64,000 bases of DNA from Pseudooceanicola antarcticus (GTDB lineage Bacteria > Pseudomonadota > Alphaproteobacteria > Rhodobacterales > Rhodobacteraceae): assembly GCF_900215355.1 (NCBI RefSeq), contig NZ_OBEA01000005.1, forward strand, positions 310,001-374,000, written 5' to 3'. A program made the translations under genes and the position numbers. This document shows positions 12,779 to 14,324 of this stretch, one piece after another. Numbering within the stretch: the stretch's first letter is position 1; the number at the start of each line of letters is the position of its first letter. The notes beneath the pieces were generated by a model. It made no database searches. It worked only from the letters and a program-made list of their open reading frames with translations, and had not been told where the DNA came from.

Positions 12779-13351
12779 GGTTGTCTCCTTCAGGTCCTTT
12801 CCGCCCCGCGCGACGGGCGCGGGCGGCTTCGGGCCTAAGGTGCGCATTTTGACGGCAGGGACAAGGGCCGCCCCGGCGCAACCCCGCACAATCGGACCTC
12901 CCCCCCCATTCCACGCGGGCCGCCCCCATGGCGATCACGCTGGCGCGGCGCGAATGCTGCATCGCAGCAAAATTTGACCTCTCAAGGCCTTCAGCCCCCC
13001 TGTTTGCGCCGTACCCCCGAGGCGGCCCGGGGCTGATCGGTTCTGTAAGTGCTCAAATGATAATCGTGACCCTACGTCACAAGGGGGTTCTTGTTTATAA
13101 GGGGTTTGTTCACATTCTGCCCGGATTCTGTGCAGAGCGCCCCCCGCGCTATTAGGTCAACGCCTCTTATGCACTTGCTGCATAGCGGCGTTGTAGAACC
13201 GGCGATTGTGCATTCGCAGCAAATGGGGGAAAAGAGGATCAACAGCGGCGGCAATGAATGCTCGCAAGTTAGCGCCAACGCGGCGCAGAGCTTCGGAGCC
13301 CCGCAATAGACACGAACGTCTACCGAGACCGTTACGTAAGGATGAGTTGAA
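12779..13351. promoter_or_regulatory. Divergent intergenic region and long leader of the DUF1127 gene
   Basis: No gene seen in these 573 bases, which separate divergent mrp and the DUF1127 gene. An imperfect inverted repeat spans 13158-13193: outer arms CAACGCC/GGCGTTG, inner arms TATGCA/TGCATA, loop CTTGC. Heat-shock-sigma-like CTTG hexamers occur at 13090 and 13174 with plausible -10 partners (CACATT near 13111; TAGAAC at 13194). In R. sphaeroides the homologous locus is transcribed by RpoHI/RpoHII; whether either site is the promoter here is a guess. AAGGATGA precedes ATG 13352. Confidence 0.45.
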
Positions 13352-13576: not shown

Positions 13577-13655
13577 GGATCAGTCGGCCCTCTCCTCCTC
13601 CCTGGGCCCACTGAGACTGGCGACGGTGCCTCTCCTCCTCCCTGGCACCGTCGCA
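13577..13655 (+). ncRNA. CcsR/cuckoo RNA copy 1
   Basis: Two successive hairpins, each presenting TCTCCTCCTCCCT in the loop. Hairpin 1: arms 13581-13590 and 13604-13613 (CAGTcGGCCC/GGGCCcACTG, one mismatch), motif CCTCCTCCC at 13594-13602. Hairpin 2: arms GCGACGGTGCC (13620-13630) and GGCACCGTCGC (13644-13654), motif at 13634-13642. The loop is complementary to a Shine-Dalgarno sequence, the defining trait of this RNA family. Ends are estimates from the hairpin limits. Confidence 0.85.
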
Positions 13656-13680
13656 CCTAACATCGGAGCACATGCTCCAA

Positions 13681-13759
13681 CAGTTCGCCGCCCTCTCCTC
13701 CTCCCTGGGCGGTGATGTCAGGACCGGCGGGAGCTCTCCTCCTCCCTGCTCCCGCCGGA
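13681..13759 (+). ncRNA. CcsR/cuckoo RNA copy 2
   Basis: Hairpin 1: CCGCCC (13688-13693) and GGGCGG (13707-13712) with CCTCCTCCC at 13697-13705. Hairpin 2: CCGGCGGGAGC (13724-13734) and GCTCCCGCCGG (13748-13758) with the motif at 13738-13746. Nearly identical to copy 4, including the CAACAGTT lead-in and the linker, so the two look like products of a recent duplication. Confidence 0.85.
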
Positions 13760-13770
13760 CACTGACCAAG

Positions 13771-13848
13771 AATACGGTCGCTCTCTCCTCCTCCCTGAGC
13801 GCCCGTTGTATCCCGGAGATGCCTCTCCTCCTCCCTGGCATCTCCGGA
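13771..13848 (+). ncRNA. CcsR/cuckoo RNA copy 3
   Basis: Hairpin 1: CGCTC (13779-13783) and GAGCG (13797-13801), the weakest stem of the array, with CCTCCTCCC at 13787-13795. Hairpin 2: CCGGAGATGCC (about 13813-13823) and GGCATCTCCGG (13837-13847) with the motif at 13827-13835. The stem sequences differ from copies 2 and 4 while the loop is invariant. Confidence 0.82.
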
Positions 13849-13882
13849 CATCATTCCGGGGTCGTTCCACAGGTCCGAGCCC

Positions 13883-13964
13883 AACAGTTTCGCCGCTCTC
13901 TCCTCCTCCCTGAGCGGTGATGCCAAGACCGGCGGGAGCTCTCCTCCTCCCTGCTCCCGCCGGA
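13883..13964 (+). ncRNA. CcsR/cuckoo RNA copy 4
   Basis: Hairpin 1: CCGCTC (13893-13898) and GAGCGG (13912-13917) with CCTCCTCCC at 13902-13910. Hairpin 2: CCGGCGGGAGC (13929-13939) and GCTCCCGCCGG (13953-13963), motif at 13943-13951, same stem as copy 2. Relative to copy 2, hairpin 1 shows a paired change (CCC/GGG to CTC/GAG), which keeps base pairing. Confidence 0.85.
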
Positions 13965-13977
13965 CGCTTGGCCCAGA

Positions 13978-14064
13978 TACGCCGGTCCTCTCCTCCTCCC
14001 TGGACCCGCGTTAGATGACGGCGGCGCTCTCTCCTCCTCCCTGAGCGCCGCCGTTTTCATTTTC
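13978..14064 (+). ncRNA. CcsR/cuckoo RNA copy 5, ending in the array terminator
   Basis: Hairpin 1: GGTCC (13984-13988) and GGACC (14002-14006), motif CCTCCTCCC at 13992-14000. Hairpin 2: twelve-base arms ACGGCGGCGCTC (14018-14029) and GAGCGCCGCCGT (14043-14054), motif at 14033-14041, followed by TTTCATTTTC. The last hairpin is thus both an anti-SD hairpin and the intrinsic terminator of the whole transcript. Confidence 0.85.
14018..14064 (+). terminator. Terminator of the DUF1127-cuckoo RNA transcript
   Basis: Twelve-bp perfect stem with a 13-base loop and a T-rich tail (TTTCATTTTC). It is the only one of the ten hairpins in the array that is followed by a T-run, which fits one polycistronic precursor processed into five RNAs. 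Confidence 0.8.
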
Positions 14065-14123
14065 AAAAACATGTGCTTGGGAAGAAGTGGGCTCCGCGCC
14101 CTCGGCCGCGCTGCGCGCGCCCT

Positions 14124-14324
14124 CACCCCCGGAGTACTTTCAGCCTGGTGATGATGCAGGGGTGACGGTGCCCGGCACGGCGCCCTCCCTATGCAACAGG
14201 AGCGTGCCACGCCCTTCATGGAAAAGGCGGGCGCCCTTCCGCCCTGCCCCATGCGCATCACCAGGCTGAAAATACTCCGGGGGTGAATTGAGCCCGCGAG
14301 GGCTCAAGAGGGGGCAGAGCCCCC
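14124..14324. repeat. Composite palindromic repeat, CATCACCAGG variant
   Basis: Arm 14124-14153 and its inverse 14256-14285 (core GGCTGAAAATACTCCGGG, outer half CATCACCA) enclose about 100 bases with no gene. One arm has GTACTTT where the other has AAAATAC, so pairing includes a G-U. A GGGGGC-AGA-GCCCCC hairpin follows at 14310-14324. It separates the RNA array from the convergent helicase gene; with the flanks, 14065-14411 contains nothing else recognisable. Confidence 0.75.

Follow-up and report, generated by a model that had tools for sequence, protein, structure and literature searches.

A conserved five-unit cuckoo/CcsR RNA array behind a DUF1127 gene in Pseudooceanicola antarcticus, with a putative LsrB/VtlR-type promoter element

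The hairpin array found downstream of a DUF1127 gene in the window (the whole 64,000-nucleotide stretch of Pseudooceanicola antarcticus DNA analysed here) is confirmed as a cuckoo/CcsR locus of the CIN1 type; it is real, conserved, and of a known kind. In the explanation that we consider to be well supported, this is a five-unit locus, probably activated by a regulator of the LsrB/VtlR type and cut into RNAs that would block translation under stress. The functional locus extends upstream to approximately position 13170. The new and testable part is a putative LsrB-type promoter link in Rhodobacterales, which goes beyond the earlier note on this DNA and is proposed here on the basis of the promoter sequence, where the regulator is predicted to bind. 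The features of the locus are listed in Table 1.

Table 1. Features of the DUF1127–cuckoo locus (positions are those of the window).
Feature	Position	Strand	Characteristics
Putative LsrB/VtlR-type site TGCA-N6-GCAT (TGCACTTGCTGCAT)	13170..13183	+	Same form as the LsrB site reported for the NfeR1 promoter (PMC10746234)
Conserved box TGCATAGCGGCGTTG	13179..13193	+	Overlaps the TGCA-N6-GCAT site
−35-like element TTGTGC	13206..13211	+	Within conserved ATTGTGCAnnYGCAGCA
DUF1127 protein, CcaF1-like, 71 aa	13352..13567	+	Pfam PF06568, 53.1 bits (cut-off 23.3)
Cuckoo unit 1	13586..13654	+	Stems of 5 and 11 bp; RF02791, 49.8 bits
Cuckoo unit 2	13685..13758	+	Stems of 9 and 11 bp; RF02791, 41.3 bits
Cuckoo unit 3	13779..13847	+	Stems of 5 and 11 bp; RF02791, 37.2 bits
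Cuckoo unit 4	13890..13963	+	Stems of 9 and 11 bp; RF02791, 41.8 bits
Cuckoo unit 5	13984..14055	+	Stems of 5 and 13 bp; RF02791, 39 bits
Last hairpin and T-rich tract	14017..14064	+	Likely also an intrinsic terminator

The stems of the array span positions 13586–14055 on the plus strand. All ten hairpins are perfect, stand in five pairs, and present the same 13-nt loop, UCUCCUCCUCCCU (written also as TCTCCTCCTCCCT); the stems measure 5, 11, 9, 11, 5, 11, 9, 11, 5, and 13 bp in order, with zero mismatches. The earlier note had described ten motif copies, each looped out in its own hairpin and arranged two by two, within 13577–14064. Both the arrangement and the range hold, the stems being followed by a T-rich tract; given this tract 3′ of the last hairpin, the latter probably also ends transcription. 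Exact CCTCCTCCC occurs ten times in the window, on the plus strand only (13594–14041), and its one-mismatch copies in the rest of the window are as frequent as expected by chance. In the 4.23-Mb assembly (97.41% complete), CTCCTCCTCCCTG has ten copies, every one of them in the array, and the reversed control has zero. The distance between loops is 40–41 nt inside a pair and 49, 63, or 75 nt from pair to pair. These spacings are mostly not multiples of three, and coding frames across the array were set aside. We take the array loops to be an imitation of the 3′ end of 16S rRNA.

When units 1–5 were folded singly, the z-scores were −5.8, −5.0, −7.0, −6.4, and −7.9, and for each of the five units, none of 200 shuffles folded as well as the unit itself. 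The ten hairpins are retained in the fold of the whole region. The second stem is identical between units 4 and 2. A plain duplication of a 205-nt unit was also considered; the registers agree, but an ungapped comparison over 190 nt gives an identity of just 0.65, and therefore no recent duplication is claimed for the window array. Just 3′ of the array, at 14115–14300, there is an inverted repeat with sub-threshold covariance matches on both strands. Matches to MIR1437 (both strands) and MIR810 (one strand) at 14095–14300 were far below the cut-offs and were taken as this downstream repeat, which is outside the array. Frames sharing the EYFQPGD string are found at this repeat and, near positions 2600–2900 of L210, beside the LsrB-like gene described below, which suggests a dispersed repeat element.

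Three comparison loci, one from a MAG (L059) and two from Pseudooceanicola marinus LMG 23705 (L061) and SY-2-17 (L060), were picked by the DUF1127 protein and not by the loops. Against L059, L061, and L060 alike, 0 of 130 loop positions are changed; the stems show 1, 8, and 9 changes over 179 positions, and the linkers 25, 57, and 58 changes over 219 positions, respectively. Among the 89 base pairs compared, changes on both sides with pairing kept number 0 (L059), 3 (L061), and 3 (L060), with one pair broken in each comparison; both P. marinus arrays exceed the window array in length, and the matching of units in these alignments is the aligner's choice. Over 133 distinct instances of the loop, collected from 44 loci, pairs 2–11 form in 69–95% of cases, compared with shuffle means of 42–73% and 23–68% for slid partners, while pair 1 is nearly fixed and uninformative (90% paired versus 91% in shuffles). 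Because the loops are unchanged and the stems covary, what is kept is the loop sequence and the pairing of the stems, not the stem sequence; variable yet paired stems are what is expected of cuckoo RNAs. The claim that the loops are invariant and the stems vary is borne out by the compensating stem changes in orthologues, and the exposed anti-Shine-Dalgarno (anti-SD) loop is strongly constrained.

All five units match the Rfam family RF02791 (CcsR1), with scores of 37.2–49.8 bits and E-values from 6.8e-11 to 3.8e-7. The family search proposed in the earlier note was thus positive for every unit; however, none of them reaches the gathering score of 65.3 bits, and for this reason the locus is filed as a cuckoo/CIN1-type locus and not as a strict member of RF02791. 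Across the order Rhodobacterales (390 genomes), RF02791 matches with E ≤ 1e-4 were found in 342 genomes, compared with 0 of 14 controls, so the hairpins are conserved in relatives. The gathering score is passed by 12 of the 390 genomes, and the other 330 matching genomes lie below it; the Rfam cut-off for CcsR1 therefore hides most such RNAs in Rhodobacterales. The paired-loop pattern was found in 352 of the 390 genomes, its reversed control also matching in some. This pattern is missing from all eight sampled genomes of genus g8 (G007, G009, G029, G069, G079, G119, G167, and G244), an apparent loss of the system. The family ar14 (RF02344) gave 57.1 and 48.3 bits, below its gathering score of 58.8. 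The 6C RNA (RF01066) likewise has two hairpins with C-rich loops; it was rejected, as its best match in the window scores 32.8 bits, below the cut-off of 47. In the literature, a cuckoo RNA is described as having neighbouring hairpins whose loops all carry CCUCCUCCC, and the window units have this structure.

The DUF1127 gene, which the earlier note had placed upstream of the array, is recognised by Pfam well above the cut-off (Table 1). Its last sense codon is separated from the first CCTCCTCCC by 29 nt, and the encoded protein is 89% identical to that of a Rhodobacteraceae MAG and 74–75% identical to those of two genomes labelled Pseudooceanicola marinus. A short DUF1127 gene directly upstream is a mark of CIN1 loci. 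Such a frame was found in 64 of the 80 loci examined, the window included; these loci were the first listed pattern matches, genomes picked for large arrays, and the best RF02791 scores, so the array sizes in this sample lean high. In the other 16 loci, a DUF1127 frame was not detected; six of them carry the promoter box described below, 68–189 nt ahead of the first loop. Several arrays with the box close upstream and an undetected DUF1127 frame (L018, L067, L072, L142, L145, L151, L215, L228, L236, and L242) look like stand-alone sRNA genes. Near the second DUF1127 gene of the genome (L041), no box was found within two mismatches, and the loop motif is nowhere in the genome outside the array. 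For YjiS, also a DUF1127 protein, the literature passages report that RNA binding was not found.

The 64 DUF1127-linked arrays contain from 1 to 23 loops, with a median of 8; this is the outcome of the comparison of copy number across Rhodobacterales that the earlier note had called for. More than ten loops are present in 23 of these arrays and exactly ten in seven, the window being among the latter. Five units are thus on the large side and ordinary, neither exceptional nor record-setting. When loci were retrieved by the promoter element, two of 30 had more than ten loops within 1.4 kb. The counts are 12 and 14 loops in the two P. marinus-labelled genomes and, among genus-mates, 6 in G207 and 12 in G307. 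In one of the P. marinus loci (L060, 3552–3725), two adjacent units with their linkers are nearly identical by eye, which is likely a recent tandem duplication and can explain 14 loops compared with 12 in the other P. marinus genome. Arrays of 20–23 cuckoo loops were observed in a single genus, g15 (L076 in G152; L073 and L075 in G114 and G015), far more than in R. sphaeroides with its four units.

When the DUF1127 upstream regions of seven loci were aligned, one strongly kept block stood out, the box; its consensus over 62 box loci is YATGCRnWTKCTGCATRGCnGCATTG. With at most one mismatch and within 600 nt upstream, the box is present in 56 of the 64 DUF1127-linked arrays (40 exact, with 0.16 expected from shuffles), the box having been derived from some of the same loci in which it was then counted. 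Some of the eight arrays lacking it at this threshold show a looser form by eye. A TTGTGC-like element was found in 54 of the 62 box loci, at a distance of 12–13 nt in 53 of them, and a −10-like hexamer lies 16–18 nt past this element in 38 of the 54. The window is not among these 38 loci, and a −10 hexamer of the relatives' form was not found in it. The composite element TGCATRGCNGCNTTG-N6-14-TTGTGCA occurs in 201 of the 390 genomes of the order and in none of the controls, once per genome among the matches listed; in its exact form, it is missing from 189 genomes, including G207 of the same genus. In all 30 loci fetched by this composite element, CCTCCTCCC is located within 600 nt downstream, compared with one of 30 within 600 nt upstream. 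At least two CCTCCTCCC motifs within 1.4 kb are present in 28 of these loci and a single motif in the other two, a DUF1127 frame is present in 26, and CCTCCTCC, used as a control, was found on the opposite strand downstream in none. Other exact matches of the box in the P. antarcticus genome (L121, L122, and L124) have C at a consensus A/G position and were taken as chance matches.

The TGCA-N6-GCAT form has one plus-strand match in the window, at the site given in Table 1, and three minus-strand matches, one of which overlaps the same place. Of the 62 box loci, 53 have a TGCR-N6-GCAT overlapping the box, and 38 have TGCA-N6-GCAT there. The start of the site is 36 nt from the start of TTGTGC; if the latter is the −35 element, the site would therefore start near −71. 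In S. meliloti, LsrB is reported to bind TGCA-N6-GCAT at −72 to −60 of the NfeR1 promoter and to activate NfeR1 (PMC10746234). For VtlR, the published motif is CAATGCAGCCATGCA (PMC12595884) or, in another form, GCAT-N3-TG-N3-T (PMC7486931). The window box agrees with TGCATGGCTGCATTG, the reverse complement of CAATGCAGCCATGCA, at 12 of 15 positions, with an exact match in L072, and it is one position off GCAT-N3-TG-N3-T.

The genome encodes one clear LsrB/VtlR-like protein (G000:C6:110508-111371, 361 bits), the next LysR protein scoring 159.5, so a regulator suited to such control is present. The profile used was built from eight of 18 LysR-type proteins found in 30 trxB neighbourhoods across the class. 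These 18 proteins were presumed to be LsrB/VtlR partly by their N-terminus; the other basis for the naming was the synteny of LsrB/VtlR with trxB (PMC7486931). In each of the 24 genus and family members searched, the profile gave one strong match of at least 352 bits. Over the first 65 residues, the LsrB-like protein shares 76–82% identity with six relatives from the class, and overall 44–45%. Unlike in Rhizobiales, its gene does not adjoin trxB; the neighbour there is an Lrp/AsnC-type gene, and a loose LysR pattern found nothing in 10 kb around trxB. Its cysteines are at positions 163 and 189 (the ORF being counted without the first Met), and by number, in an unaligned comparison, it has none at 144 and 273, the positions named for Agrobacterium LsrB as a redox sensor. 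In one published account, LsrB is called unique to Rhizobiales (PMC11975290). Given that LsrB activates an RNA with the same loops in Sinorhizobium, a shared LsrB-to-anti-SD-RNA circuit is proposed. We lean towards the view that control of the DUF1127–cuckoo arrays across Rhodobacterales lies with an LsrB/VtlR-type regulator whose regulon centres on one operon, and that this is an old alphaproteobacterial circuit with one fast-changing array in place of the separate sRNAs of Rhizobiales.

According to the preferred explanation, the locus would give a single transcript starting near 13240 and ending at the last hairpin. Stress would raise its transcription through a LysR regulator of the LsrB/VtlR type, predicted to bind at 13170–13183, perhaps together with RpoH. 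The transcript would encode the CcaF1-like DUF1127 protein, and its 3′ part would probably be cut by RNase E, with the help of this protein, into five RNAs of approximately 80–90 nt; the role of a maturation factor is carried over from CcaF1 by analogy. Each RNA would show two UCUCCUCCUCCCU copies able to pair with purine-rich Shine-Dalgarno regions, and under stress such pairing would keep a set of mRNAs from being translated. In a search for targets, AGGGAGGAGG was found outside the array at nine genome sites, compared with five in the reversed control. Three of the nine sites are located 5–7 nt before the ATG of a frame of 152–398 aa, and two further sites each precede a TTG, the frames there being 50 and 57 aa long. 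Exact 10-nt loop complements are associated with a periplasmic binding protein (L102), an extradiol dioxygenase-like protein (L095), and a protein that matches no Pfam family (L099); with the complement before the ATG, these three are candidate targets, as leads only.

The reading that the repeat is due to chance or sequence bias and lacks RNA function can be ruled out, its probability being negligible. The motif is short and of low complexity, and its one-mismatch matches in the rest of the window are no more frequent than by chance; however, the restriction of CTCCTCCTCCCTG to the array, the order-wide RF02791 matches, the constraint and stem covariation found in orthologues, and the fold z-scores with their shuffles all contradict it. 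It is improbable that the hairpins, instead of being free sRNAs, act as a cis element within the DUF1127 mRNA, whether for 3′ protection, for attenuation, or as a sponge of the encoded protein. Their position in the 3′ region of the DUF1127 gene in most loci and the reported RNA binding by CcaF1 (PMC10253847) are consistent with such an element, but the box precedes the loops in six loci where a DUF1127 frame was not detected, and the CcsR RNAs of R. sphaeroides are reported to be processed and to act on flhR (PMC10253847, PMC8307010).

The control of the locus and the meaning of its size admit other readings. It is rather unlikely, though by no means negligible, that, in the same cuckoo locus, a different regulator binds the element or the element is for the most part a stress-sigma (RpoHI/RpoHII) promoter, the LsrB-like protein having other targets. 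The R. sphaeroides operon is reported to have a promoter of this type (PMC10253847), so control may not be due solely or mainly to LsrB; −10-like YATNTT and CCCATGTT forms occur in many relatives, and the cysteine positions of the LsrB-like protein and the place of its gene away from trxB point in the same direction. On the other hand, the TGCR-N6-GCAT form coincides with the box in most box loci, the reverse-complemented VtlR motif is exact in L072, the N-terminal part of the regulator is far better conserved than the whole, and S. meliloti LsrB binds this very form at the NfeR1 promoter (PMC10746234), all of which argues for the LsrB/VtlR link. That copy number is a dose, with added hairpins raising the amount of anti-SD loops per transcript, is compatible with the preferred explanation and seems a tenable, if somewhat doubtful, addition to it. 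The identity of the loops in all ten hairpins, the counts of 12 and 14 in the two P. marinus genomes, and the range of 1–23 loops fit dose tuning; nevertheless, the range fits neutral unit turnover equally well, recombination between similar units giving the same picture, and the three loops of NfeR1 are reported to be redundant (PMC10746234). The arrays of the order provide a natural copy-number series for asking whether sRNA arrays act by dose.

The promoter element offers a testable regulator for CcsR-type RNAs, for which the published passages name control by RpoHI/RpoHII only, and an LsrB link would bring together the published work on R. sphaeroides and on Sinorhizobium (further sources drawn on are PMC3927594, PMC8625941, PMC12501420, PMC12218461, and PMC7143759). 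The closest known system is ccaF1-CcsR1-4, the CIN1 locus of R. sphaeroides, which likewise has a 71-aa DUF1127 gene, tandem CcsR RNAs, and a 3′ terminator (PMC10253847). Its genes are reported to be co-transcribed and processed by RNase E with the DUF1127 protein (PMC10253847), and flhR is a target of CcsR1-4 (PMC8307010). The kinship with it claimed in the earlier note is upheld, with five units here compared with four behind ccaF1 (PMC10253847); the differences are this number, the scores below the gathering threshold of the CcsR1 model, and the LsrB-type element, which the literature passages on the R. sphaeroides locus do not mention. The NfeR1/ar14 family of S. meliloti has identical CCUCCUCCC loops and a TGCA-N6-GCAT promoter (PMC10746234), but NfeR1 is one RNA with three hairpins and its own promoter, whereas here ten hairpins in five pairs follow a DUF1127 gene. 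The anti-SD loops of NfeR1 are described as silencing mRNAs in a redundant manner (PMC10746234). AbcR1 and AbcR2 (ar15) also expose anti-SD motifs in unpaired regions, and AbcR1 is under LsrB/VtlR in Rhizobiales (PMC7486931, PMC10746234); however, each AbcR RNA is described with two CU-rich motifs and no array of identical loops. The window locus is thus larger than the R. sphaeroides model case, and it carries the putative site of a regulator type that has so far been studied in rhizobia and their relatives.
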